This document shows, piece by piece, positions 4,774 to 24,354 of a stretch of DNA of 33,331 nt. A model generated the notes under the pieces. It did not search any database. It had not been told where the DNA came from and saw only the letters and a program-made list of their open reading frames with translations. Each line of letters opens with the position of its first letter. Position 1 is the stretch's first letter. The stretch is from assembly GCA_016926755.1 (NCBI GenBank), contig JAFGNZ010000178.1:1-33331 (forward strand). The letters run 5' to 3'. This DNA is from Myxococcaceae bacterium (lineage in GTDB: Bacteria; Myxococcota; Myxococcia; Myxococcales; Myxococcaceae). A program made the translations under genes and the position numbers.

Positions 4774-7149
4774 TCAGCGCTTCACGCTCCGGGCCGCCTC
4801 CACCGCGCGGAGGATGGCCTCGGGCGTCGCTGGGGAGGCGAGCTGCACCTCCGTGCGCGGCGGACCGAAGGCGGCCACCGCGTGCCGCAGCGCCGTCACC
4901 GCTCCGATGGCGAGCATGAACGGCGGCTCCCCCACCGCCTTGCTCCCGTGGATGGTGCTGTCCTGGGGCGCGCGCTCCAGCAGCTGCACGCGGAAGTCCT
5001 CGGGCGCGTCCCCCAGCGCGGGGATCTTGTACGTGTCCGGCGAGTGCGTGAGGAGCCGCCCCTTCGCGTCGATGAGGACCTCCTCGCAGGTGAGCCACCC
5101 GAGCCCCTGGATGAAGCCGCCCTCCACCTGCCCGCGATCGATCGTGGGGACGAGCGAGCTGCCCACGTCATGGAGGATGTCCACGCGGCGGACGCGGTGC
5201 TCCCCCGTCAGGCCGGAGACCTCCACCTCCACCACGGCGCCGCCGAAGGCGAAGTAGTGGAACGGCTTGCCCTGCCCCATCTTCCGGTCATAGCCGATGT
5301 CCGGCGTCCGGTAGTACCCCGTGGCGGACAGGGACACCTGGGCCTGGTACGCCGCGTGCGTCAGCTCCGCGAAGGTGAGGGAGCGATGCGGGTACGCCGG
5401 ATGTGACACCCGCCCCCCGGCAAAGACGATCCCCTGCGCCTCGGCCCGGTCCACCTGCAGCAGGTGCGCGGCGACGAGCCGCAGCCGCTCGCGCAGCACC
5501 TCACAGGCGGCCTTCACCGCCTGCCCGTTGAGATCCGAGCCGCTGGAGGCCGCCGTGGCCGAGGTGTTGGGCACCTTGTCCGTCGCGGTGGTCATCACCC
5601 GCACGTGCTCGGCGGGCACGCCCAGCGCGTGGGCGCACACCGCCCGCATCTTGGTGTGCAGGCCCTGCCCCATCTCCGTGCCGCCGTGGTTGAGCTGCAC
5701 GGTGCCGTCCCCGTAGATGACGACGAGGGCCCCGGCCTGGTTGAGGAAGCTGGTGGTGAAGGAGATGCCGAACTTCACCGGCTGGTAGCCGATGCCGCGC
5801 TTCGTCCAGCGGGAGGCCGCGTTGAACGCGTCGATCTCCGCCCGGCGGCGCGCGTACTCGCTGGAGGCCATCAGCTCCGCGTGGATGCGCGGCAGGCGGT
5901 TGCCCTCCACCAGCTGCCCATAGTGGGTCCGGTGCTCGGACGGCTCGTGGTAGTAGTTGAGGCGCCGCACCTCCGCCGGATCCAGCCCCAGCCGCTCGGC
6001 GGCGCGGTTGAGCACCTCCTCCACCACGAACATGCCCTGCGGCCCGCCGAAGCCTCGGAACGCCGTGTTGGAGGGCTGGTTCGTCCGCGCCACCCGGCCG
6101 CTCACCTCCACATTCGGGAGGAAGTAGGCGTTGTCCATGTGGAACAGCGCCCGATCCAGGATGGCGTGCGACAGATCGTTGCTCCACCCGCCGTCGGAGA
6201 CGAGCTCGGCCTTCAGCGCCAGCAGCCGCCCATCCTCGAAGAAGCCCGCCTCATAGCGAGCCCAGAACGGGTGGCGCTTGCCCGTCTGCTCCATGTCCTG
6301 GTCCCGGTTGAGCCACACCTTCACCGGCCGCCGGGTGGCCCTGGCCCCCAGCGCCGCCAGCGCCGCGAAGGGCGCCGCCTGCGTCTCCTTGCCGCCGAAG
6401 GCCCCACCCATGCGGGGCACCTCCACCGTCACCTGGTGCCGGCCCAGCCCCAGCACCTCGGCCACCTTCTCCTGCACCTCCGAGGGGTGCTGGGTGGAGG
6501 ACCAGAGGCGCACCGCCCCGTCCTCCTCCATCACCGCCAGCGACGCCTGCGTCTCCAGGTAGAAGTGATCCTGCGCCCCCGTCATGCACTCGCCTTGGAT
6601 GCGCACCGGCGCGGCGAGGAGCGCGGCCTCCGGCTCCCCACGGCGGATGAGGTGCGGGCCGGGATAGAGCCAGTGGGGCAGGAAGGAGCCCTGCTCGAGC
6701 GCCTCGCGGATGGAGAGGCAGGCGGGCAGCGCCTCGTACTCCACCTCCACCAGCGCGGCGGCCTGACGGCAGAGCGCCGCGCTCTCCGCCACCACGAGGG
6801 CCACGGACTGCCCCACGCAGTGCACCTCGTCCACCGCCAGCAGGGGTTCGTCATGCACGCCCCGGACAGGGCACACGTCGTTCACCCCTGGGATGTCCTG
6901 GGCGAAGAGGACGGCGTGGACGCCCGGGAGCGCCAGGGCGCGGCGAGCCTCCTTGCGCACCACGCGCGCGTGGGCGTGGGGCGAGGCGATGACATGGCCC
7001 ACCAGCGTGCCTGGCAGCAAGGGCAGATCATCCACATAGAGGGCCTCGCCGCTGGTGTGCTTCAGCCCGCTCTCGTGGAGGGCGGGGGCATGCAGGGGGC
7101 TCTTCACGTCCGACTCCCGCGGCGCGACTTCGGAGAGTATGGCGACCAT
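4774..7149 (-). CDS. xdhB: xanthine dehydrogenase, molybdopterin-binding subunit
   Basis: This 791-residue subunit carries the molybdenum cofactor that hydroxylates hypoxanthine and xanthine to urate. It has the aldehyde oxidase/xanthine dehydrogenase a/b-hammerhead domain at about residues 20-130 and then the molybdopterin-binding domain. Visible motifs are MGGAFGGKET, FRGFGGPQGM, GGTEMGQGLHTK, TSATAASSGSDLNG and, near the C-terminus, KAVGEPPFMLAIG, whose Glu is the expected catalytic base. The set matches XdhB of two-subunit bacterial enzymes rather than CoxL, which has a different AYRCxFR loop. A GTG at 7152 directly precedes the ATG at 7149; I chose the ATG because GAGGTGA in the end of xdhA is better spaced from it. 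It lies four bases after the xdhA stop, so the pair is one operon. No xdhC maturation gene is in the window. Confidence 0.95.
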   Translation of the reverse strand: MVAILSEVAPRESDVKSPLHAPALHESGLKHTSGEALYVDDLPLLPGTLVGHVIASPHAHARVVRKEARRALALPGVHAVLFAQDIPGVNDVCPVRGVHDEPLLAVDEVHCVGQSVALVVAESAALCRQAAALVEVEYEALPACLSIREALEQGSFLPHWLYPGPHLIRRGEPEAALLAAPVRIQGECMTGAQDHFYLETQASLAVMEEDGAVRLWSSTQHPSEVQEKVAEVLGLGRHQVTVEVPRMGGAFGGKETQAAPFAALAALGARATRRPVKVWLNRDQDMEQTGKRHPFWARYEAGFFEDGRLLALKAELVSDGGWSNDLSHAILDRALFHMDNAYFLPNVEVSGRVARTNQPSNTAFRGFGGPQGMFVVEEVLNRAAERLGLDPAEVRRLNYYHEPSEHRTHYGQLVEGNRLPRIHAELMASSEYARRRAEIDAFNAASRWTKRGIGYQPVKFGISFTTSFLNQAGALVVIYGDGTVQLNHGGTEMGQGLHTKMRAVCAHALGVPAEHVRVMTTATDKVPNTSATAASSGSDLNGQAVKAACEVLRERLRLVAAHLLQVDRAEAQGIVFAGGRVSHPAYPHRSLTFAELTHAAYQAQVSLSATGYYRTPDIGYDRKMGQGKPFHYFAFGGAVVEVEVSGLTGEHRVRRVDILHDVGSSLVPTIDRGQVEGGFIQGLGWLTCEEVLIDAKGRLLTHSPDTYKIPALGDAPEDFRVQLLERAPQDSTIHGSKAVGEPPFMLAIGAVTALRHAVAAFGPPRTEVQLASPATPEAILRAVEAARSVKR

Positions 7150-7153
7150 CACT

Positions 7154-8605
7154 TCACCTCACCTGGACCGTCGCGGCGTGGCGCTCCTGGAGCCGGGGCG
7201 CTGGCTCGCTGAGCGTCTCCAGGAAGAAGCCCCGGAGCAGGTTCTTCGCCACCTGGGCCCGGTACCAATCCGAGCCACGGTGGTCCGTCCTCGGCGTGAA
7301 GTCCTCATCGAGGAGGGGGAGCACCGCCTCCACGCTCGCCTCCGTCCAGGGCTGCCCCACGAGCGCCGCCTCGGCCCGGCTCGCGCGCGCCGGACGGGCC
7401 GACATGCCCCCGTAGGCCAGCCGCGCCTCGCGGACGCGCCCCTGCTCGTCCACCACCACCCGGAAGCCCGCGGAGACGGAGCTGATGTCCAGCTCCCGCC
7501 GCTTCGACACCTTGTAGGCGATGGCGCGCGCCCCCGCGGGCTGCGCCGGCACATCCACGAAGGCGAGGAGCTCTCCGCGCCGCAGCGCCGTGCGCCGGTA
7601 GTCCACGAAGAAGTCCTCCAGCGCCATCCGCCGCTCCCCCGCCCGCGAGAGCACCACCGCCTCCGCGCCCAGGGAGATCAGCACCGGCGCCAGATCGCCA
7701 ATGGGGGACGCCGTGCACAGGTTGCCGCCCACCGTCGCGCGGTTCTTGATCTGCCGCGCGCCGAAGTAGCGCGCCATCCGCTCCAGGGGTGGGCAGGTGG
7801 CCCGCGAGTAGTCCTCCAGCTCCGTCAGCGTCACCGTGGCGCCCACGCGGTGCCCGCCCGCGCGCGGCTCCAGCGTCCGCAGCACGCGCAGCGCCTCCAG
7901 CGACACGAGCAGCGGCGGCTCCGCGAAGCGCTTGGTCACCTCCAGCGAGAGATCCGTCCCGCCCACCACGAAGCGGGCCTCCGGGTGCGCGTCCAGCACG
8001 TCCCACAGCGCCTCGAGGGTGGCGGGGGTGAAGAAGCGCTGGGGCCCGGCCGTGTAGGCCAGCTCCATGGGCTCGGGCTTCGTCTCCGCCAGGGCGCGGG
8101 CGAAGCGATCGGCTGGCCTCAGGCCCGCCACGCGCGCGGCGGCATCCCGGATGGGCCGGTAGCCAGTGCAGCGGCAGAGGTTGCCGCACATCTGCGCGTC
8201 CAGCTTCCACGGCTCGTTGAAGTCCTCGCGGTGGCAGGCCTCCAGCAGCGCCATGGTCACCCCCGGCGTGCAGTAGCCGCACTGGGAGCCCAGCTCGCGC
8301 GCCAGCGCCTCCTGCACCAGGTGGTAGCGGCCGCCCTCCTTCAGCGCCTCCACGGTGTACACGCGCTTGCCCTGCACCATGGGCAGCAGCAGCAGGCAGG
8401 AGTTGATCGCCCGCAGCACCGGCGCCCCCTTCCCGTCCTCCTCCAGCACGGCCACCGTGCAGGCGCCGCAGTCCCCCTCCGCGCACCCCTCCTTGGTGCC
8501 CGTCAGGTGGGCCCGGTCGCGCAGGTAGCGCAGCACCGTGGTGGTAGGAGAGAGCCCCGACTCCTCGACGAGCCGGTCGTTGAGATAGAAGCGCAGCCGA
8601 TCCAT
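7154..8605 (-). CDS. xdhA: xanthine dehydrogenase, iron-sulfur/FAD subunit
   Basis: This 483-residue electron-transfer subunit passes electrons from the molybdenum site through two [2Fe-2S] clusters to FAD and NAD. The first cluster uses C41, C46, C49 and C70 (GCAEGDCGAC). The second uses C109, C112, C144 and C146 (QCGYC and CRCTGYRPI). The FAD domain follows from about residue 190 with FVVGGTDLS and the typical ATVGGNLCTASPIGDLAP, and the CO-dehydrogenase flavoprotein C-terminal domain ends the chain. Length and order match bacterial XdhA. It precedes xdhB directly. CAGGGGA lies upstream of the ATG. With ureidoglycolate lyase at 21610 it hints at purine use, although uricase and allantoin genes are not in view. 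Confidence 0.95.
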   Translation of the reverse strand: MDRLRFYLNDRLVEESGLSPTTTVLRYLRDRAHLTGTKEGCAEGDCGACTVAVLEEDGKGAPVLRAINSCLLLLPMVQGKRVYTVEALKEGGRYHLVQEALARELGSQCGYCTPGVTMALLEACHREDFNEPWKLDAQMCGNLCRCTGYRPIRDAAARVAGLRPADRFARALAETKPEPMELAYTAGPQRFFTPATLEALWDVLDAHPEARFVVGGTDLSLEVTKRFAEPPLLVSLEALRVLRTLEPRAGGHRVGATVTLTELEDYSRATCPPLERMARYFGARQIKNRATVGGNLCTASPIGDLAPVLISLGAEAVVLSRAGERRMALEDFFVDYRRTALRRGELLAFVDVPAQPAGARAIAYKVSKRRELDISSVSAGFRVVVDEQGRVREARLAYGGMSARPARASRAEAALVGQPWTEASVEAVLPLLDEDFTPRTDHRGSDWYRAQVAKNLLRGFFLETLSEPAPRLQERHAATVQVR

Positions 8606-14800: not shown

Positions 14801-16978
14801 TCAGGGGGCCGTGCCGGACTTCGCGGCCCCTGAGCGGCGCTTGCCAGGTGCGCCGCTCTTCGCGGGGGCCTCGGCGGCAGGCTTTGGCATCAGCGTCTTG
14901 TAGGCCTCCTTCAAGGCCTCGGGGGTGCTCTCCAGCTTCGCGGCGACCTTCGTGGCCTCGGCGGGCGGCAGCTTCCCCAGCACGCTGCGCATCAAGTGCT
15001 GCTCCACGAAGCCCTGCGTCGTGTCCACCTTCAGGTCCGTCACCTGCCCCTTCGCGTCCAGCACGGGCACCAGCCGCGGCGCCGTGAGGAAGAGCACCGC
15101 CGGGACGTTCGCCGCCTTCACCCGCTGCACCACCTCGTCTCGCAGCTTGGGGTCGAACTTGATGCCCTTCTGCGTCACCAGCTCGCGGATGCCCTGATAG
15201 TCCCCGGTGGCCTTGATGACCATCAGCTTCGAGAGCAGCTCACCCACGGCCTCGCGCATCTTCGCGTAGTCCGTCACCACCCAATAGGTACGCCCGCCCT
15301 CCACCACCTGGCGCACCGCGCCCTTCTCCATCAGGAACATCACCGTCAGGTGCCGGCCGCGGTGGTGGTCCTCCTCCAGCTCATCGCCCTTCTCCACCCG
15401 CTGCAGGTCCGTGAGCGACTCGACGAGGAAGTCCCGGTACATCTGCTGGGCGATCTTCTCCGCGTCCGGGGACAGCTCCGTGAGCGCCGGATCGAACGCA
15501 TGCCAGAGCGCGACGAGGTCCGCGCGCGCCTCCTCCAGTGTGTTGTCGTACTCCTTGAGGAACTTCGAGGGCGGCTGGTTCCCGAGCTTCTTCTTGTCCA
15601 CCTGGCCCGAGGCGTGCCCCAGCACCTCGTGGAAGGCCACCAGCCACTTGCGCGCCGTGACGGAGTACTTCTCCGCCTGGGCGCGCTCCTCGGGTGTGCG
15701 GGAGAACTCGATCGCCAGCGGCAGCCGCCGCAGCGCCGAGGCCGCCTCCATCACGTTCGCCACCAGCACGCTCTTGCTCCCGTACTTCTCGCGGAGGTGC
15801 TGCTCGTTGGGCAGGTTGATGCCCGCGGGCGGCTGCGGATAGGTGGCGATCAGGTGGATGGCCTTCGCCACCGGCAGCGTCACCTTCTTGCGCCGGTAGG
15901 GCTGCGGCCACGGCGTGCGATCCTCGAAGTACTGCGCCTTCTTCGCGATCAGCTCCATCACCCGGTTCTCCGTCGCGTCCCGGTAGTGGATGAGCGCCTC
16001 CCACCAGCCCTTCTGCCCGCGCGGATCCACGTACGACTCGATGAAGCCGATGGTGCCCTCCACCATCGGGTCCACCTTCAGCCACGCGATGTTGTAGGCG
16101 TCCCAGTCCTTGGGCTCGCCCGTCTGGAAGTAGCGCACCAGCTTGGCCAGCACGGGCTTCTGCTTGCTGTTGGCCGACCGCGACGCCTCCTGCAGGTGGG
16201 CGATCACGCGCGACAGCTCCTCCGCATACAGCCCCGGAGGGATCCGCTTGTCCCCAGCGCGGAACACCTGCTCCACCAGCTTGCCGTTCACCTTCACCAC
16301 CCGCGAGTTGAGCGGGTACCTCTCCGAGAAGCGCTCCAGGTCCTTCAGCGTCACCCCAGGCCCGTAGGCGGTGTTCGCCGAGGCGGTGATCATGTCCTGG
16401 CCCTCCGGCGGAGACTTCGCCGTGAGCGCGGGCTCGAAGGCGGCGTCGAAGATCGTCGGCCGCAGCTCCTGGAGCCAGGCCCGCAGGGCGTGCTCGTCCT
16501 TCACCCCCAGGGGCGCGCCAGCCCGGAAGGCACGCCCCGCCGCCGCCTCCAGCTCCCCCGCCGTGAACTCCGGGACGAACTTCTGCCCCGTCACCTGATC
16601 GTGGTTGCCCGTGTGGCCGTAGAAGAGCGACAGGTACGACTTCAGCCGCGCGTCGAACAGGCCCGGACCGCCCGCGCCCTCCAGGCCGAAGAGGTAGACG
16701 CCCTCCATGAGGCGCTTGACCTCCAGCAGCTTCCACCCGAGCTGGTCATAGGCGATGTCCTCGCCCGCATGCGAGGCGAGCGTCAGGTGCCAGGCGAGCC
16801 GCTTCTCCTCCGGGGACAGCCCGGCCACGCCCGGCGCGAAGAGCTGCGCGATGGCGAGCGTCCCGGAGCGCTCCTTGAGGAATGACTGGGCCGGAGGGGG
16901 GGCGCTCGTCGTCGCGGCCTCGGCAGGCTTGGCCTGCGGAGCTGCGGCGAGCATGGCAACCAGGAGGAGGGCGTTCAT
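14801..16978 (-). CDS. secreted dipeptidyl-peptidase III (M49 family)
   Basis: This 725-residue zinc peptidase removes dipeptides from the N-terminus of oligopeptides. The zinc motif is HEVLGH (H450, E451, H455), the six-residue HExxGH form specific to M49, and the third ligand lies in EEARAD (E483). Other M49 features are visible: NTAYGPG, the segment from NIAWLKVDP through GFIESYVDPRGQKGWWE, and INLPNEQ. MNALLLVAMLAAAPQAKP is a signal peptide, so it acts outside the cytoplasm, unlike the eukaryotic enzyme. The spacing between the two zinc motifs (28 residues) is short, as in bacterial members. The C-terminal 30 residues are Lys/Ala/Gly-rich and disordered. TTGGAG precedes the ATG. It is convergent with recX and likely helps digest peptides released by secreted proteases such as the S8 enzyme nearby. 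Confidence 0.92.
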   Translation of the reverse strand: MNALLLVAMLAAAPQAKPAEAATTSAPPPAQSFLKERSGTLAIAQLFAPGVAGLSPEEKRLAWHLTLASHAGEDIAYDQLGWKLLEVKRLMEGVYLFGLEGAGGPGLFDARLKSYLSLFYGHTGNHDQVTGQKFVPEFTAGELEAAAGRAFRAGAPLGVKDEHALRAWLQELRPTIFDAAFEPALTAKSPPEGQDMITASANTAYGPGVTLKDLERFSERYPLNSRVVKVNGKLVEQVFRAGDKRIPPGLYAEELSRVIAHLQEASRSANSKQKPVLAKLVRYFQTGEPKDWDAYNIAWLKVDPMVEGTIGFIESYVDPRGQKGWWEALIHYRDATENRVMELIAKKAQYFEDRTPWPQPYRRKKVTLPVAKAIHLIATYPQPPAGINLPNEQHLREKYGSKSVLVANVMEAASALRRLPLAIEFSRTPEERAQAEKYSVTARKWLVAFHEVLGHASGQVDKKKLGNQPPSKFLKEYDNTLEEARADLVALWHAFDPALTELSPDAEKIAQQMYRDFLVESLTDLQRVEKGDELEEDHHRGRHLTVMFLMEKGAVRQVVEGGRTYWVVTDYAKMREAVGELLSKLMVIKATGDYQGIRELVTQKGIKFDPKLRDEVVQRVKAANVPAVLFLTAPRLVPVLDAKGQVTDLKVDTTQGFVEQHLMRSVLGKLPPAEATKVAAKLESTPEALKEAYKTLMPKPAAEAPAKSGAPGKRRSGAAKSGTAP

Positions 16979-17099: not shown

Positions 17100-17978
17100 C
17101 TAGAAGGCGTGCTGGTCCTCTCCGGCGCCCCCTCCGAAGCCCTCGATGATTCCCCGGTTCTGCGGCACCGTGCAGGGACACACCTCATAGCGGCATGGGG
17201 CCGGCGCGACCCACAGGCGCAGCGTCCCATCGAAGATGTTGCCCAGGTGCCCGTCCCCGAAGCGCTTGCCCGGGTAGCAGGAGAAGGCGTCCCCTTTGGG
17301 GTGGATGATGAAGTACTTGCTGCCCGCGTGGCACATCCGCCCCTTGAGCTGGAAGCCGCGGTTCATCTGCGACGGCGACACCATGTCCCCGAACGCGCGA
17401 TCGATGCGCCAGCGATCCACCCACCCGTACCGCGCCGGCTGCCCGTTCACTCGCATGAGCTGCGGGTAGAACTTGATGCCCGCGCCCTCGAAGCGCTCGC
17501 GGCTGGCGGCCACCTCCGGCACCTGCCCCGGCACCACCACGCTGTTGACCACGAAGGTGGCGCGCGGCCACTTCGCCAGCAGCTCCTTCACCGCCGTGGC
17601 CTTCTCGAAGAACTCCGCCTCCTCCACCTCCTCGCGGTGCAGCGAGCACGAGAAGGTGCGCAGCTGCTCCCCCGCCGCCTCGATGAAGGTGGAGATGACT
17701 CGCAGCGGGGCGGAGAGGTTGGTGAGCAGCGACACCTTGTGCCCCGCCGCCGCCAGCCGCTGCGCCACCTCCGGCAGCCGCTTGAGCATGAAGGGCTCGC
17801 CGCCGGAGATCTTGAACTCCCAGCTCCCCTGCAGCGCCGAGAGCGCCCCGAGCGCCGCCTCGAGCTGCTCGTCCGTGGGCCCGCCGATGCCCGGCATGTG
17901 CTTCTGCACGCAGTAGGTGCAGCGGTAGTTGCACCCACCGACGATGTTCCAGCTCACCGTGGGGCGCGGGCCGCTCAT
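17100..17978 (-). CDS. radical SAM protein with C-terminal cysteine cluster (second of pair)
   Basis: This 292-residue enzyme has the radical SAM motif CNYRCTYC (C16, C20, C23) right at the N-terminus, followed by KISGGEPFM, the SAM-binding GGE motif, and LLTNLSAP. The C-terminal region has a SPASM/twitch-like set: MCHAGSKYF, FSCYPGKRFGDGHLGN and CRYEVCPC, which should hold an extra Fe-S cluster. Such clusters are typical of enzymes acting on peptides, proteins or sugars. The start at 17978 overlaps the stop of the upstream radical SAM gene as ATGA, so it is the last gene of a four-gene coupled operon. The substrate is unknown. Radical SAM assignment is certain. Confidence 0.92.
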   Translation of the reverse strand: MSGPRPTVSWNIVGGCNYRCTYCVQKHMPGIGGPTDEQLEAALGALSALQGSWEFKISGGEPFMLKRLPEVAQRLAAAGHKVSLLTNLSAPLRVISTFIEAAGEQLRTFSCSLHREEVEEAEFFEKATAVKELLAKWPRATFVVNSVVVPGQVPEVAASRERFEGAGIKFYPQLMRVNGQPARYGWVDRWRIDRAFGDMVSPSQMNRGFQLKGRMCHAGSKYFIIHPKGDAFSCYPGKRFGDGHLGNIFDGTLRLWVAPAPCRYEVCPCTVPQNRGIIEGFGGGAGEDQHAF

Positions 17979-19015
17979 GGCAGCTCCCCCGCCTCGAGCA
18001 GCTCGCGGAGCTCCCGCGCCGCCGCGAAGTTCAGGTCGTGTTTCCCGCAGCGCGCGCAGCCCGGGTAGTACTCGCCCCGGTGGAGCCGCTGGCGCACGGC
18101 CTCGTACGCCGGCGCGCGCCACACCTCCTGGAAGGGGCCCTCCTTCACGTGCCCCGCCTCGATGTGTTCACAGCAGAAGAAGACGCGCCCGTCCACGTAG
18201 ACGCGGCTGTAGAGGTAGCCCGCGAAGCACCCCGTCTCCTGCCCTGACGGCCACCTCCCCGACAGCTGCGCCTCATAGGCGTCCAGGTTGTGCTTCACCT
18301 TCAGCGCCTTGGCCAGCTTGCGCGCCGCCGGGAGCAGCTCTCCCAGCACCTGCTGCTTCTGCGCCTCGGTGAGCGCGTGGTGCTCGGTGCCGCGGGGCAC
18401 ATCCCCCACCTTGAAGGACGCGCGCGCCCCCACCTCGTGCGCCAACTGCACCATCCGCGGCAGCTCCAGGTAGTTCACCCGGTTGATGACCTGCACCAGG
18501 TTGACGGCCGTGACGTCCCGCACCACCCGCACGCCCTCCAGCAGCCGGTGGAACGTCTCCGGAGGCTGGTTGGGGTGATAGGCCACGTACGTCTCCGGCG
18601 ACGCGGACGCCATGTTCAGCAGGAGCTGATCCACCCCCAGCTCCCGCACCCGCGCGAAGTCACACAGCGTCCCGTTGGTGATGATCGTGAGCCGCAGGCC
18701 CCGCGCCTTCACCTTCTCGATGAAGGCGTAGATCTCCGGGTGGGTGAACGGCTCGCCGCCCCCGCTGATGACGATGCGCTCGGCGCCCGCCTGGGCCGAC
18801 TCGTCCACCATGCGGTGGAAGGTGGCCGCGTCCATCCGCTGGCGCTTCCACGCGACGGGCTTCGGTGTCGCCAGCTCCGGCGCGTAGTTCCAGCACGTGA
18901 TGCAGTCGAGGTTGCACGCGTTGGTGACGTCCAGGTGGACCGTCTCCGGCCCGGTGCGCGGCTTGCGCTCCAGGTAGCCTCTCAGGCGCTCCCGCTGGGC
19001 TTCCTCGTTCTTCAT
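17975..19015 (-). CDS. radical SAM/SPASM protein (first of pair)
   Basis: This 346-residue enzyme has CNLDCITC (C34, C38, C41) after a conserved VHLDVTNA strand, then VISGGGEPFTHPEI and TIITNGTL, all standard radical SAM blocks. A SPASM-like region at the C-terminus contains TGCFAGYLYSRVYVDG, FFCCEHIEAGH and GCARCGKHD, enough cysteines for one or two auxiliary clusters. The order resembles SPASM enzymes that modify peptides or sugar/nucleotide substrates. The ATG at 19015 overlaps the glycosyltransferase stop (ATGA), and its own stop overlaps the next gene the same way. Two different radical SAM enzymes back to back suggest two successive steps on one substrate. Which substrate is not evident. 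Confidence 0.92.
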   Translation of the reverse strand: MKNEEAQRERLRGYLERKPRTGPETVHLDVTNACNLDCITCWNYAPELATPKPVAWKRQRMDAATFHRMVDESAQAGAERIVISGGGEPFTHPEIYAFIEKVKARGLRLTIITNGTLCDFARVRELGVDQLLLNMASASPETYVAYHPNQPPETFHRLLEGVRVVRDVTAVNLVQVINRVNYLELPRMVQLAHEVGARASFKVGDVPRGTEHHALTEAQKQQVLGELLPAARKLAKALKVKHNLDAYEAQLSGRWPSGQETGCFAGYLYSRVYVDGRVFFCCEHIEAGHVKEGPFQEVWRAPAYEAVRQRLHRGEYYPGCARCGKHDLNFAAARELRELLEAGELP

Positions 19016-20100
19016 GTGAGCAGCTCCAGCAGCGCCCGCGCCGCGGGCTCCGCGCCATTGCGCTCCACCCGCTTGCGCGCCGCCCCGCGCAGCCGCTCGC
19101 GCGTGGCCGGGTTCAGCACCTCGCGCACCGCCCGGGTGAGCCCCTCGCGCGTCAGCGGCGCGCACACCAGCCCGGCCCCCGCCTCCGCCAGCTCCCGCGC
19201 GCGCTTCTCCTGGTCATCCACCATCCGCTCGAAGGGGACGAACACCGAGGGGATGCCCGCGGAGAGCAGCTCGTGGACGGCGTTGTAGCCGGCCGCGGTC
19301 ACCGCCGCGTCGAAGGCCGGGAGGAAGTCCAGCGCCGGGTAGCGCCCGTGCAGCACCACCGCGCCCTCCAGCGTGGGCGGCGGCTCGCGCCACAGCGGGC
19401 CCGCGCCCACCACCAGCCGCACCCCCGGCAGCTCTCGCGCCACCTGGGCCGTGAGGGTGAGCGCTCGCGCCCCCTCGGGATCTCCGCCGCCGCCAAACGA
19501 GGCGTACAGCAGCGTGGCGTCCTCCGGCAGCCCGAGCGCCTGGCGCGCCTGGGCCCGAGAGGGCAGCTCCTGGCGATCGCGGATGAGGATGGGCCCCACC
19601 GCGCGGGCCTTCGCGGGCTCGGGCAGGCGCCCCACCCGGGACACGTCGTCATGCGGGATGAGGATGAGATCGTACAGGCGCAGCGACGCCTGGAGCAGCT
19701 CCGAGCCCGCGGACTCCACGCGCTGCTCACGGAAGACGAAGACGTTCTTCTGCCGCCAGCGCAGCGCCGGGATGAGCTCCTCGAAGCTGCCCGTGGGGTA
19801 GGTGTCCACCACGAGCACGTCCGGATCGAACGCGGCCAGCGTGTTCCACGTCACCGTCTGCACCAGCTTGAGGTAGCTGCCCTTGCGCAGGCCGCAGCGC
19901 TCCCGGATCGTCTTCGAGGGCAGCTTCACCGCCGCGAAGCCCTCGCGGTAGATGACGTGGTCGGCCTCGGACGAGGTGAGGAAGAGCACCTCGCACTCCG
20001 GCGAGAGCCGCTTCAGCGCCCGCGCGATGGACAGCAGCCGGGTGACGTGGCCCAGGCCCAGGCCGTTGACGGCGTAGAAGAGGAAGCGGGGCGCGCCCAT
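19012..20100 (-). CDS. GT-B glycosyltransferase, MurG/GT28-like
   Basis: This 362-residue protein has the two Rossmann halves of GT-B enzymes. The N-terminal half opens RFLFYAVNGLGLGHVTR, the glycine-rich acceptor-side loop of MurG-type enzymes. The C-terminal half has LLYASFGGGGDPEG and VTAAGYNAVHELLSAGIP followed by SVFVPFERMVDDQEKRA, the nucleotide-sugar-binding block of GT28. No membrane helix or signal peptide is seen, so it is cytoplasmic or peripheral. Its start codon shares one base with the TPR gene's stop (TGATG), and its stop overlaps the radical SAM start (ATGA). Donor and acceptor are unknown; it is not MurG itself, because the chain lacks the canonical MurG N-terminal GGTGGH and sits outside a cell-wall cluster. 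Confidence 0.88.
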   Translation of the reverse strand: MGAPRFLFYAVNGLGLGHVTRLLSIARALKRLSPECEVLFLTSSEADHVIYREGFAAVKLPSKTIRERCGLRKGSYLKLVQTVTWNTLAAFDPDVLVVDTYPTGSFEELIPALRWRQKNVFVFREQRVESAGSELLQASLRLYDLILIPHDDVSRVGRLPEPAKARAVGPILIRDRQELPSRAQARQALGLPEDATLLYASFGGGGDPEGARALTLTAQVARELPGVRLVVGAGPLWREPPPTLEGAVVLHGRYPALDFLPAFDAAVTAAGYNAVHELLSAGIPSVFVPFERMVDDQEKRARELAEAGAGLVCAPLTREGLTRAVREVLNPATRERLRGAARKRVERNGAEPAARALLELLT

Positions 20101-21503
20101 CAGGAGTGATCCCTCCAGTCGCGCTCCTCGCGGTGCTGGCTGGCCTGCCTCGCCGCGGCCTGGGTGGCTGCCTGCGCCGCCGCGGCCTCTCGCGCGCCGT
20201 CGAGATCCAGCAACTCGCTCACGGCGTAGGCCGCCACCCCACCCACCAGCGCGCCGCCCGCGGCGATCGCCGCCACCTCGGCCAGGGAGCGCTGCGGAGT
20301 GAAGTCCCAGGCCGGGACCATGCGGGTGCCCGGATAGGGCTTGTGGCGGTGGGCATAGGGATCATACCCGCCCAGCTCGCTCCAGTGCGTCGCCCGCCCC
20401 TGCGCCACGCGCACCTTCACCGGAGGCGGCTGCCCCGCGGAGGCCATGTTCGCGCACGGGGGGCACGCGAGCACGTGGGTGATCTCCGCGCCCCGCTTGA
20501 GCGGCACCTGCTTCCGGAAGGAGGGATTCGCCAGGGGGCGCGCGCAGAAGTAGCAGCCCACGCGCTCCCCCTCGGGCAGGAAGGCCTTGTCGCCGAAGAG
20601 CGATCGGGCCCGCTCCATGGCCGCCTTCGCGCCCTCCTCCGCCGCGTCCACCGAGGCCAGCACCTGCGCGATCTTCGACCTCCCCTGCCGGGCCCCGGCC
20701 AGCTCGTCGCGCGCCCGCTGCTCCGCCATGGTGGCCTGGTTGAGCATCGCGCGCAGGTCGGCATCCTCCTCCAAGCGCAGGGCGTGCTCCACCGAGACGA
20801 GCGAGCTTGCCACCTGCTCCAGCCGCTGCTCCAAGGGGGACAGGTCCGCCGCGCGCGCCGGTGCTCCGGACTCCCCGCGGGAAGAGGACGGCCCTTCGCC
20901 GGACGATCTGGAGCTCCGCGTGAGGCGGCGGATCAGGAGGATGAGCCCGACGACCAAAGCGATGGGCGTGCCGAGGCAGAGAGCGACCCCGACGGCTTCT
21001 CCTATCTTGTGCGCGGTCGGGTGGGTGAGCTCGGGGCCGGGCTCCTGCGCCGTCGTGCCACCAGCAGAGGCATCTCCACTGGTGGAAGGCTCTCCCGGCG
21101 GCTCCGTGGGCGCCGGGGAGACAGAGTCCTCGGGGGAGAACCCCATCTCCCGCAGCTTGTCGTCGATCTCCGCCCGCTTGTACGCCGGGTCCAGGGTCCT
21201 CGACTGGAGCAGGGCGTCCCGCGCCTCGCCGTAGCGCTTCAGCTTCCGCAGCGCGAGCCCGCGGTTGTATTGCCACCGCGCCTTGCCAGGCTCCAACGCG
21301 GCGGCCTGATCGAACTTCTCGAGGGCCGCCGCGTAGTTCTTCGCGTCGTAGAGCCGCTTGCCCTGCTCGTACACCGCGAGCGCCCGCGCGCTGGCATCCG
21401 CGTCCGCCGCCCCCGTGCCTCCACGCTCCGCCGGCGCCTGCGCCAGCACCCCGGTCCCCAGCAGGAGCACCAGCCCCAGCGCCAGGAAGTTCCATCGCTT
21501 CAC
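20100..21503 (-). CDS. membrane TPR protein with coiled coil and zinc-ribbon-like motif
   Basis: This 467-residue protein starts at a GTG preceded by GGAGG and has a signal peptide (residues 1-23). TPR-like helices lie at 40-110 (YEQGKRLYDAKNYAAALEKF, then WQYNRGLALRKLKRYGEA), so this part should face the periplasm. A transmembrane helix lies at 167-193, followed by RRLTR, which places the rest in the cytoplasm. A coiled coil spans about 220-305. Four cysteines in two CxxC pairs (C317/C320, C347/C350) make a probable zinc ribbon. A conserved-looking aromatic stretch precedes a hydrophobic Gly/Ala segment (407-430) and a charged tail. It is first in the operon and looks like a scaffold that could bring the glycosyltransferase and radical SAM enzymes to the membrane. 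The overall family is not one I recognise. Confidence 0.75.
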   Translation of the reverse strand: MKRWNFLALGLVLLLGTGVLAQAPAERGGTGAADADASARALAVYEQGKRLYDAKNYAAALEKFDQAAALEPGKARWQYNRGLALRKLKRYGEARDALLQSRTLDPAYKRAEIDDKLREMGFSPEDSVSPAPTEPPGEPSTSGDASAGGTTAQEPGPELTHPTAHKIGEAVGVALCLGTPIALVVGLILLIRRLTRSSRSSGEGPSSSRGESGAPARAADLSPLEQRLEQVASSLVSVEHALRLEEDADLRAMLNQATMAEQRARDELAGARQGRSKIAQVLASVDAAEEGAKAAMERARSLFGDKAFLPEGERVGCYFCARPLANPSFRKQVPLKRGAEITHVLACPPCANMASAGQPPPVKVRVAQGRATHWSELGGYDPYAHRHKPYPGTRMVPAWDFTPQRSLAEVAAIAAGGALVGGVAAYAVSELLDLDGAREAAAAQAATQAAARQASQHREERDWRDHS

Positions 21504-21609: not shown

Positions 21610-22116
21610 TCAGTCGCTCGTCACGAGCAGCGGCGCGGAGAGGGGGCGCTCCTCGCAGTCGCGCGCGGTGCCGTCCTCCCACGCCAGCATCAGGAAGTCC
21701 GCTGCCTCATCGAGCGCGATGATGGGGTGGTGCCACACACCGGCGCGGTAGTTCACCCCCTGGCCCGGGCCGCACACGAAGGCGTGCAGCCGGGCAACGG
21801 CCGGCTCGCCGCGCGCGTCGTCCGGACAGACGACGACGAGGAAGCGCCGGCACGCGAGCGGCACGAACAGCTGCGTCGAGCAGGGGTGGCGCTCCAGCAG
21901 GCGCACCTCGAAGGGCAGCGCCTTCGCCACCGAGCGGAAGACGGCGAGGTTCGGCTGTGCCCCCGGCCGGCTGCTGGCGAGCTGGGCCACGCGATCGTAC
22001 CGGGTGGCCGTCCCCTGGTTGGCGCTGGTGCCGCCCGCCAGCTCCAGGCCGATGACATCACCGAAGGGGGCGAACGCCTCCCGCGTGAGGGGTTGTGCCC
22101 GAAGTGCCTCGCCCAT
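21610..22116 (-). CDS. allA: ureidoglycolate lyase
   Basis: This 168-residue cupin-like enzyme splits ureidoglycolate to glyoxylate and urea, the last step of allantoin breakdown. Family motifs are LTREAFAPFGDVI at the N-terminus, the beta-barrel core with LLERHPCSTQLFVPL, and GQGVNYRAGVWHHPIIAL with DFLMLAWEDGT. The ATG at 22116 is preceded by AGGAGG; an upstream in-frame start at 22140 would overlap that site. Length is normal for the family. Allantoinase and allantoicase are not in the window, but xanthine dehydrogenase (4774-8605) belongs to the same purine-degradation route. It lies 106 bases from the TPR gene on the same strand. Confidence 0.88.
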   Translation of the reverse strand: MGEALRAQPLTREAFAPFGDVIGLELAGGTSANQGTATRYDRVAQLASSRPGAQPNLAVFRSVAKALPFEVRLLERHPCSTQLFVPLACRRFLVVVCPDDARGEPAVARLHAFVCGPGQGVNYRAGVWHHPIIALDEAADFLMLAWEDGTARDCEERPLSAPLLVTSD

Positions 22117-22194
22117 GCTCCCTCCTCCTGCCAGGGACACCCGGAGCCAGTGGCCGGTCCCGGGTGTCCCGCCATGCGCTCTCCGCGCCGCGGC

Positions 22195-24282
22195 CTACGG
22201 CGAGACGCCGGCCCCGGAGACGTTGAGGGTGTAGCTCCCCGTGGCCCCCGAGTAGCCGACGACGCGCACGTAGTAGGTGCCCGGCGTCGACACACTATAG
22301 CTGCCCTGCTCCGGGTTGCTCGCGGTGTACCCGCGCGCCAGGTACGTGCTGGTGTCCGCCTCGCTGTACAGGTACCAGTCGAGATCCGCGCTCCCGGAGA
22401 TGGTCAGCGTCACGGTGACCGTGCCCGCCGCGGTGACGGTGAACGTGAACCAGTCCGCGTCAGCGCTGGAGGAGATGGCGCCGGAGACGTTCGTGCTCGC
22501 CGCCACCCGGCCGTCCGCGGTCGCCGCGGTGCCGTTGTCCTCGGACTCGGAGGTGATGGCGTCGGAGGGAGTGCCCCCGCCGCCGCCGCCACCGAACGCG
22601 GTGCCATCCGCCTTCGTGCCCGGCGAGGAGGAGCCGACGGCGCCCGACAGGCTGGTGTGCAGGGCGAAGGAGCCGCTGCTGCTGACATCCGGGCTCCGGT
22701 TCGCCGACACGCCGTCCGTGCCGCTCACCCCCGAGCTCAAGGTGGCCGTGTCCACCACCGTCCCGGCCGCGTTCTTCACCGTCACGGTGTCACCGCTGTT
22801 GGACAGGCCGAGCGAGCCCGTCGACGCCGCCACCGCGTTGGCCAGGCCCGAGGGGATGCCCGAGGCCCCGCCGAAGACCACCACCGCGCCCCCCGCGGCC
22901 ACGCTCGAGCCACTGGCGAAGGTGTGCCGCACCGACGAGGCGTCGGAGATCGTCCAGCCGGAGAGATCCACCGCCGTGCTGCCCGTGTTGACCACCTCCA
23001 CGAACTCGCCGCTCACGGCCGAGCCCGCCTCGTTGACGAGCACCTCGTTGATGAACACGCCGCCCGTGCCGCCGCCGCCACCGTCGGACACGGTGATGGT
23101 GAAGCTCGCGTTGCTCGTGTCGCTGAGGGTGGAGCTGGACGCGTCGCTCACCCGCACCTTCGCGGCGGTGGTGGCGCTGCTCGGCACCGTCCACGCGTAG
23201 CTGCCCGCCGAGGCCGCCGTGCTCGAGGTGATCGTCGTCCACGTGCTCCCGTTCAGCGTGTACTCCAGCTTCACGTTCGTCACCCCCGAGGCCGTCCAGG
23301 TGATGCTGTGCGCGCTGCCCCCCACCCAGCTCTCGCCGCCGTTGGGGGAGCCCACCGTGACGCTCGCGCCGGTGGTGTCACTCGGGATGAGGAAGTCCTT
23401 GATGATGCCCATGTGCTGCATGTTCGTGGCGCCGCTGTCGCCGCTCAGCGCCGGGGAGATCTCCGAGAGGGGCGAGTGCACGCGCGTGTCCACCACCAGG
23501 CCGCTGGCGTAGCTGCTCGCGCCGATCAGCGTCGCCGTCTGGTACTGGCGCAGATCCGCGTCCACCAGGACGTGATCATACGGCTTGCCGCGGCTCGCGT
23601 TGGTGTTGGTGTTGCCGTTGCGATCCGCCGGGTACGGGCTCGCCGTGGACACCACCTGGGAGAAGGTGCTGAAGCAGGACTCGGAGCGGCTGTCGGTGTT
23701 GAGATCTCCGCCGATCGCCAGGTAGTCCCCCGCGGGCACGTTGGCGTTGATGAAGTTCACCAGGTTCGTCGCCTCCGTGTTGCGCACGCTGCTGCTCGCG
23801 GTGAGCAGGTGCACGCTCACCACCCAGAGATCCTTGGGGCCCGGCACGTCGATGCGCGCCCAGGCGAAGTCACGGTTGCTGACCTGGTTGTCGTCCCACT
23901 CGCCCGCGGCGAGGATCGGCCAGCGGCTGATCACCCCGTTGGGGATCTGCGCGCCCCCCTCGCGGTAGTAGGAGAAGGTGGAGCCGAACGCCGTGTCGAC
24001 GAAGCTACGGATGGCGGACGCTGAATTGTCGCCATAGTTGAACTCCTGGATCATCACGATGTCCGGCTGCGTGCCCTGGAAGATGCGGGTGCCGTGGCCG
24101 GGATCGTAGCTCTGGAGATTGCCACTGGTGATGTTCGCGGCCATCAGCCGCACGCGCACGGTGGCGAGCGCGGACTCCTGCGTGTCCAGCGAGTCATCCT
24201 CCACCCCACCCAGCGCTGAACCTCCGCAGGCCACGAGTGTCAGGGAGAGCAGGGCCGCCACCAGGCGACGGTGTACGAGCAT
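22195..24282 (-). CDS. secreted EEP-fold nuclease lipoprotein with lamin-tail and PPC domains
   Basis: This 695-residue protein starts at the ATG at 24282 (GAGG upstream) and has a lipoprotein signal with LVAC (lipobox C19). Residues 35-290 are an endonuclease/exonuclease/phosphatase domain: VMIQEFN (metal-binding Glu), WVVSVHL, IGGDLNTD and a late YDHVLVD (catalytic His). A beta-sandwich with NGGESWVGGSAHSITW follows (305-400), then a lamin-tail domain (about 410-530, with FINEVLVN and LSGWTISD), a poly-Gly linker and a C-terminal prepeptidase (PPC) domain with DWFTFTV and YYVRVVGYSG (575-690). It is probably a surface or outer-membrane-attached DNase or phosphodiesterase, plausible for extracellular DNA use or predation. 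A GTG reading from 24312 is less likely. Domain calls are strong, the substrate is inferred. Confidence 0.88.
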   Translation of the reverse strand: MLVHRRLVAALLSLTLVACGGSALGGVEDDSLDTQESALATVRVRLMAANITSGNLQSYDPGHGTRIFQGTQPDIVMIQEFNYGDNSASAIRSFVDTAFGSTFSYYREGGAQIPNGVISRWPILAAGEWDDNQVSNRDFAWARIDVPGPKDLWVVSVHLLTASSSVRNTEATNLVNFINANVPAGDYLAIGGDLNTDSRSESCFSTFSQVVSTASPYPADRNGNTNTNASRGKPYDHVLVDADLRQYQTATLIGASSYASGLVVDTRVHSPLSEISPALSGDSGATNMQHMGIIKDFLIPSDTTGASVTVGSPNGGESWVGGSAHSITWTASGVTNVKLEYTLNGSTWTTITSSTAASAGSYAWTVPSSATTAAKVRVSDASSSTLSDTSNASFTITVSDGGGGGTGGVFINEVLVNEAGSAVSGEFVEVVNTGSTAVDLSGWTISDASSVRHTFASGSSVAAGGAVVVFGGASGIPSGLANAVAASTGSLGLSNSGDTVTVKNAAGTVVDTATLSSGVSGTDGVSANRSPDVSSSGSFALHTSLSGAVGSSSPGTKADGTAFGGGGGGGTPSDAITSESEDNGTAATADGRVAASTNVSGAISSSADADWFTFTVTAAGTVTVTLTISGSADLDWYLYSEADTSTYLARGYTASNPEQGSYSVSTPGTYYVRVVGYSGATGSYTLNVSGAGVSP

Positions 24283-24354
24283 GTACCTCGAAGAGGATTC
24301 AGTGATTGGCACGATGTGGGATCCTGCCCCGGAACCGGAGCGATGGAGGGTTCA

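Follow-up and report, generated by a model that had tools for sequence, protein, structure and literature searches.

The stretch of DNA considered here, 33,331 nucleotides of a Myxococcaceae bacterium (assembly GCA_016926755.1, contig JAFGNZ010000178.1), which we call the window, carries on its minus strand four contiguous genes. They are, in order, a first gene coding for a protein with tetratricopeptide (TPR) repeats and a zinc-ribbon-like part, a gene for a glycosyltransferase (GT), and two genes for dissimilar radical S-adenosylmethionine (radical SAM) proteins, R1 and R2. The junctions overlap as TGATG, ATGA and ATGA. The original prediction, made from the letters of the window, had proposed a coupled four-gene operon, and this stands: strand, coordinates and all three overlaps are as claimed, and related genomes show the same coupled arrangement in the same order. 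Indeed, a 4-base overlap joins GT to R1 in 17 of 17 loci measured, window included, and R1 to R2 in 16 of 16 (there is no R2 at this place in locus L047); a 1-base overlap joins the first gene to GT in 13 of 16. Part of these counts uses gene starts chosen by script close to the aligned start. The overlaps recur across loci more than chance would allow, and the four genes are supported as a conserved, coupled functional unit. It is the C-terminal tag of the first protein, rather than the membrane scaffold or the gene overlaps, that is the most informative feature of this cassette.

In the window, the first protein terminates with Asp-His-Ser-COOH. Among 21 first-gene proteins of genomes bearing R1, the tail is DHS sixteen times, DAS twice, and EHS, DRS and DVS once each. 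Position -1 is thus Ser in all 21, Asp occupies -3 in 20 of them with Glu in the remaining one, and an aromatic residue stands at -5 in 16. The background is quite different: the 362 other called genes of the same stretches – which include orthologous neighbours from related genomes and are not independent – end with Ser in 26 cases and with [DE]xS in one. Genes were called for this background with a crude GC3 script, which missed the first gene of L022; the tail of the latter was read from a tblastn-placed frame. Three of the 21 tailed proteins (L055, L056 and L057, ending DAS, DAS and DVS) belong to an unrelated coiled-coil family, devoid of TPR, zinc ribbon or membrane helix. No homology was detected between the two types of first protein, type I and type II (hhalign probability 0.1%, from small alignments), so that the tail goes with R1 on two kinds of protein that appear unrelated.

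In G589 and G592, two genomes with no R1 match at E <= 1e-25, GT lies beside a type-II-like first protein, and the tails are PES and ISS: the terminal Ser is retained, and there is no acidic residue at -3. Ser ends 23 of 23 GT-paired first proteins, against the 26 in 362 of the background. In G526, a DRS tail was noticed with no R1 nearby; a genome-wide search, set beforehand as a test, then found R1 on another contig, and the same search was negative in G589 and G592. We considered that a Shine-Dalgarno or overlap constraint might lie behind the tail and rejected it. An RNA-level cause is unlikely, because the codons vary (GAT, GAC or GAG at -3; TCC, TCG or TCT as well as AGC for Ser) and because DHS is kept at L014 and L049, where GT starts 79 nt and 86 nt past the stop; to the contrary, His is written CAC in each of the 17 tails that have it. 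The earlier statement that no precursor peptide is present had overlooked this conserved C-terminal [D/E]-x-S, which resembles a built-in recognition or target site. It sits on the first protein itself, and the view of precursor peptides covers betaproteobacterial lists of open reading frames (ORFs) of at least 100 aa, with no systematic search for small ORFs. Coordinates of these features are collected in the table.

Table. The four-gene cassette of the window and its features
Feature	Position	Strand	Details and basis
First gene	20100..21503	-	GTG start, 467 aa; TPR/membrane/coiled-coil/zinc-ribbon-like; proposed carrier of the recognised tail
Signal-peptide-like N-terminus of first protein	21438..21503	-	By eye and hydrophobicity; inferred
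TPR repeats, about residues 43-119	21147..21377	-	Pfam TPR_16/TPR_2; confident in structure model
Predicted membrane helix, residues 171-201	20901..20993	-	Structure model and hydrophobicity
Zinc-ribbon-like CxxC...CxxC, C317-C350	20454..20555	-	Invariant in 10/10 rows; metal binding inferred
Trp at -5 of first protein	20115..20117	-	Aromatic at -5 in 16/21 tails
Codons GAT CAC TCC (Asp-His-Ser) before TGA stop	20103..20111	-	[DE]xS in 21/21 first-gene proteins of R1-bearing genomes
GT, GT-B/GT28-like glycosyltransferase	19012..20100	-	362 aa
R1, radical SAM + SPASM/twitch protein	17975..19015	-	346 aa
R1 radical SAM motif CNLDCITC (C34, C38, C41)	18893..18916	-	Cysteines invariant
R1 auxiliary-cluster cysteine region C263-C323	18047..18229	-	Pfam SPASM
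R2, radical SAM protein with twitch-like C-terminal cysteines	17100..17978	-	292 aa
R2 radical SAM motif CNYRCTYC (C16, C20, C23)	17910..17933	-	Cysteines invariant
R2 C-terminal cysteine region C216-C269	17172..17333	-	Cysteines invariant

Type I first proteins are poorly conserved overall, with the last three residues invariant in 10 aligned rows and another conserved stretch some 30 residues upstream of the tail. In the structure model of the window protein, the TPR domain is confident and the linker after it is of low confidence; then come the membrane helix, a long coiled-coil-like helix, the zinc-ribbon-like part and, at the C-terminus, a helix that runs into the tail, this last block being of low confidence. 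Foldseek returned zero matches at E <= 0.001, and TPR domains make up nearly all of its best 50. The first gene had been said to span the membrane and to possess a zinc-ribbon-like part. A membrane segment is indeed predicted and all four cysteines (C317xxC320...C347xxC350) are invariant in the 10 aligned rows, while no Pfam family matches the ribbon of the window protein at E <= 1. If the single strong helix sets the topology, the tail would be cytoplasmic and accessible to the enzymes; the side on which it lies is uncertain because the protein is also hydrophobic, more weakly, near residues 406-429. No export signal is seen by eye in GT, R1 and R2. As for a scaffold at the membrane, the idea is not general because the first protein of distant cassettes has no membrane segment.

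Pfam recognizes Glyco_tran_28_C in GT (36.0 bits), Radical_SAM (66 bits) and SPASM (37.9 bits) in R1, both above cut-off, and Radical_SAM in R2 (45.1 bits, above cut-off), where SPASM, at 18.0 bits, falls below its 21.5-bit cut-off. The CX3CX2C motif of radical SAM enzymes is present in both R1 and R2. The extra C-terminal cysteines that had been noticed in the two proteins are borne out: five in R1 (C263, C281, C282, C320 and C323; alignment A6) and five in R2 (C216, C234, C262, C267 and C269; alignment A7), invariant in 10 of 10 rows in each case. No curated NCBIfam model among the matches listed (the best 25 of 68 for R1, the best 25 of 38 for R2) reaches its cut-off with any of the four proteins, which leaves the radical SAM pair apart from well-known pathways by this measure; with rSAM_STM4011 (NF038073), for example, R2 scores 46.2 bits against 200. 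No family of the RRE type (recognition elements of ribosomally synthesized and post-translationally modified peptides, RiPPs) is among the Pfam and NCBIfam matches listed for the four proteins, no RRE-specific search having been made. A defence role, as a prokaryotic viperin, was examined and rejected: R2 and R1 score 39.8 and 45.2 bits with NF038283, against a cut-off of 180, the matches are to the generic viperin core, and PADLOC pVip matches fall in the radical SAM core region. Radical SAM genes are common in the genome of the window, with 35 Radical_SAM matches including R1 and R2; this pair is not.

Solved structures lead in two directions. With a single sequence, BlsE is the best match of R1; with a profile, BlsE (E 1.1e-9) and PqqE (1.2e-9) stand level. 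By fold comparison, the Z scores of R1 are 25.2 for BlsE, 22.9 for SkfB, 21.9 for SuiB, 21.4 for PqqE and 21.0 for DesII. The nearest solved relative of R2 in a profile search is AbmM (E 9.9e-8). The nearest solved relatives include both sugar enzymes (BlsE, AbmM, DesII, BtrN) and peptide enzymes (PqqE, SkfB, SuiB). Sequence and structure leave the class of substrate, sugar or peptide, undecided.

The cassette comes in several forms. Type I (window, L012-L024 and L047-L049) associates the TPR first protein with GT, R1 and R2. In G103 (L047) the sequence 3' of R1 does not code for R2, which was not found genome-wide at E <= 1e-25, and in G097 the cassette is split across contig ends (L023, L051). 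In G526, from another family, a longer TPR protein with a zinc-ribbon-like part is directly followed by a 52%-identical GT; R1 (52%) lies on a separate contig and R2 was not found. The original prediction had named unlinked homologues as what would speak against a unit: the genes are linked elsewhere, R1 of G526 being the exception. Type II (L055, L056, L057) begins with a coiled-coil-like protein that has neither a TPR match nor a predicted membrane segment, followed by a longer GT (38-40%), R1 (37-43%) and, in L055 and L057, two R2-like genes, one of which is split over two frames in L055; in L056 the start of one R2-like gene is truncated by the contig end. Finally, in L053 and L054 the protein beside GT is related to that of L057 (22% and 18%), in genomes without R1 or R2 at E <= 1e-25. 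A few kb from this GT pair, L054 (726-4026) shows three other radical SAM-like genes in tandem, in a genome without R1 match; the gene after them is similar at its start to one in L053. A second copy of the first protein is also seen in Hyalangium versicolor (L050:8111-9112), without the TPR part and without cassette GT or radical SAM neighbours.

Across 195 Myxococcota genomes, R1 is present in 19, all with a strong GT match, GT in 21 and R2 in 18. The C-terminal domain of the first protein (alignment A5) is found in 16, all of them with R1, so that the 16 domain genomes nest within the 19 R1 genomes and these within the 21 GT genomes. In ten further Myxococcota genomes the GT match is weak (E 4e-25 to 9e-21), and these were excluded from the GT count; the weak-GT loci L058 and L059, together with the pseudomonadotal L060, were examined as gene lists only. 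Within the order of the window, 117 genomes were searched for R2 at E <= 1e-10 and 11 have it. A contig scan with the R2 of the window, which reaches near relatives only, gave three loci, L012 (Hyalangium versicolor) and two betaproteobacterial metagenome-assembled genomes (MAGs), L013 and L014, each with the full set of four genes in the same order. The MAG proteins are 38-41% (first protein), 64-66% (GT), 59-63% (R1) and 65% (R2) identical to those of the window. Outside these MAGs and the relatives of the window the cassette is rare. In a sample of 398 Pseudomonadota, R2 retrieved, besides the centre genome, one match of 27% identity, and GT the centre strongly and two others weakly; in 200 genomes of the order of the betaproteobacterial MAG, R1 retrieved the centre and one weak match at 1.6e-26. 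R1 had no match on plasmids at E <= 1e-20, and 18 loci on viral contigs, at 23-32% identity to R1, were taken as generic radical SAM proteins. The alignments used 10 of 13 rows (A1), 11 of 14 (A2 and A3), 10 of 14 (A4), 9 (A5), 10 (A6 and A7) and 5 (A8). In the GT tree the placement of L057 is void (misframed row), and we draw no direction of transfer from this tree because many of its forks are weak.

What might such an assembly do? We would read it as a self-contained protein-modification cassette in which the tail of the first protein is recognised by R1 and most likely altered by R1 with R2, a reading to which we give close to an even chance, not quite reached. The first gene product would be the substrate or carrier, with its C-terminal [D/E]-x-S-COOH; R1 would bind this tail and, together with R2, would most likely alter it through radical chemistry at the Asp of position -3 or next to it, rather than act on a sugar. 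The GT28-like transferase would act on the first protein, or docked to it, and may glycosylate it: the partner of GT is probably the first protein itself, because GT stays beside it even where R1 is absent. This biochemical role is a prediction from genomes. A bolder proposition, which we hold to be rather doubtful, is that the extreme C-terminus of a full-size protein is modified by radical SAM chemistry and addressed by a portable tag, [D/E]-x-S-COOH, in a manner previously undescribed, R1 going with the acidic residue at -3 while GT may go with the terminal Ser. Small peptides or small molecules are the substrates of most SPASM enzymes for which a substrate is known; here two large proteins, between which no homology was detected, share a C-terminal tripeptide pattern and the same radical SAM enzyme. 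Were the tail to be modified, it would add a new kind to the C-terminal modifications of proteins, and the tripeptide would be a short tag, portable between proteins, for a radical enzyme. Among the titles and openings of abstracts listed in literature searches, none described the cassette.

Several observations weigh against this interpretation. A tail that merely docks enzymes would give the same pattern, and the best solved match of R1 is by a wide margin a sugar enzyme, BlsE (1.5e-10 versus 1.2e-7 for PqqE, single sequence), which also tops its fold comparison, with AbmM leading for R2. Fifteen of the 19 R1 genomes belong to one family; because of this the Fisher values for co-occurrence (9e-21 to 2e-24) overstate independence. 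At E <= 1e-25, R2 is not found in two of the 19, G103 and G526, and a GT pair without R1 match is present in only two genomes. Genome searches scored the best first-look candidates of each genome only (10 for R1). The tail itself has its irregularities: the first protein of L054, in a genome without R1 match, has an internal DVS 16 residues upstream of its end, the L050 paralogue of Hyalangium versicolor has no tail in a genome that carries R1, G097 has Glu at -3, and the aromatic residue at -5 is absent from five of the 21 tails.

The docking idea, developed in full, makes a sugar pathway: R1 and R2 would change a nucleotide- or carrier-bound sugar, which GT would transfer, with the first protein as platform and [DE]xS only recruiting R1. 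We consider this unlikely, though it is to be taken seriously. It is consistent with BlsE as the nearest solved sequence of R1 and AbmM of R2, DesII and BtrN also matching, and with an R2-like gene of G525 (29-30% identity; L062:4006-4959) that immediately follows the gene of a UbiA-like prenyltransferase, in a cluster judged by eye to be for polysaccharide. However, PqqE equals BlsE for R1 by profile, while SkfB, SuiB and PqqE rank after BlsE in the fold comparison, and no recurring sugar-nucleotide synthesis gene is seen beside the cassette (by eye in two betaproteobacterial ORF lists, with no library search); the window does have a gene for an NAD-dependent epimerase, though at a distance of about 13 kb.

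Alternatively, the tail could serve a role proper to the first protein – partner binding, degradation tag or assembly – with the radical SAM enzymes acting elsewhere. Short C-terminal motifs are common anchors, and the second conserved stretch of type I proteins, upstream of the tail, fits this idea. It appears improbable when two families with no homology detected between them have the same residues at -3 and -1, and when these residues go with R1 rather than with the type of first protein. Still further from what we expect, and very improbable, is a redox-cofactor or RiPP-like product, with a tail modified and then cleaved off as in mycofactocin. The logic of a radical SAM protein, a glycosyltransferase and a conserved C-terminus is the same (PMC3023750, PMC7491314), but the coupled set holds no peptidase, carrier or dehydrogenase, other flanks having not been systematically annotated, and a peptidase gene adjoins the cassette only in the window and in L012 among the compared loci.

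This gene, coding for a Peptidase M49 (dipeptidyl peptidase III-like), follows the operon at positions 14801-16978 of the window; we rejected it as a member of the system on account of that restricted occurrence. On the same strand, genes for a xanthine dehydrogenase-type molybdopterin/FAD dehydrogenase and for ureidoglycolate lyase (AllA) flank the cassette at a distance (4774-8605 and 21610-22140), which suggests purine catabolism around it. Positions 22195-24312 code for an endonuclease/exonuclease/phosphatase protein with lamin-tail and bacterial pre-peptidase C-terminal domains.

Among known systems, the closest to R1 in structure is the cytosylglucuronate decarboxylase BlsE (Z 25.2, rmsd 3.1, 293 aligned), yet identity is 18%, and with the rSAM_BlsE model R1 reaches 51.1 bits where the cut-off is 400. 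For R2, the best solved sequence match is an AbmM-type radical SAM enzyme, and it covers profile positions 11-108 only, that is, the radical SAM core. GT shares its C-terminal domain (Glyco_tran_28_C) with MurG and the GT28 transferases, while remaining below the MurG equivalog cut-off (46.9 versus 250.25 bits). Sixteen of the 21 tails combine an aromatic residue at -5 with the fixed residue at -3, which is reminiscent of FxSxx-COOH. In contrast to FxSxx/FxsB, position -3 is Asp or Glu in 21 of 21 and not Ser, the terminal Ser is fixed, and five of 21 have no aromatic residue at -5; nor is there a VMAP or vWA-MoxR partner among the coupled genes. The likeness lies in a short motif kept in company with a radical SAM/SPASM protein, as FxSxx-motif peptides accompany such proteins in VMAP ternary systems (PMC7159879). 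The mycofactocin maturase model TIGR03962 gives R1 48.6 bits against a cut-off of 265. Mycofactocin nonetheless resembles the cassette in composition: a radical SAM/SPASM enzyme and a glycosyltransferase (MftC and MftF) co-occur with a polypeptide whose C-terminus is conserved, MftA (PMC3023750, PMC7491314). The glycosyltransferase MftF is of family GT2, where that of the cassette is GT28-like, and MftB, MftD and MftE also take part; there the substrate, 31 aa long in M. smegmatis, is a short peptide that ends with Val-Tyr, whereas the cassette carries its tail on a protein of 400-600 aa.

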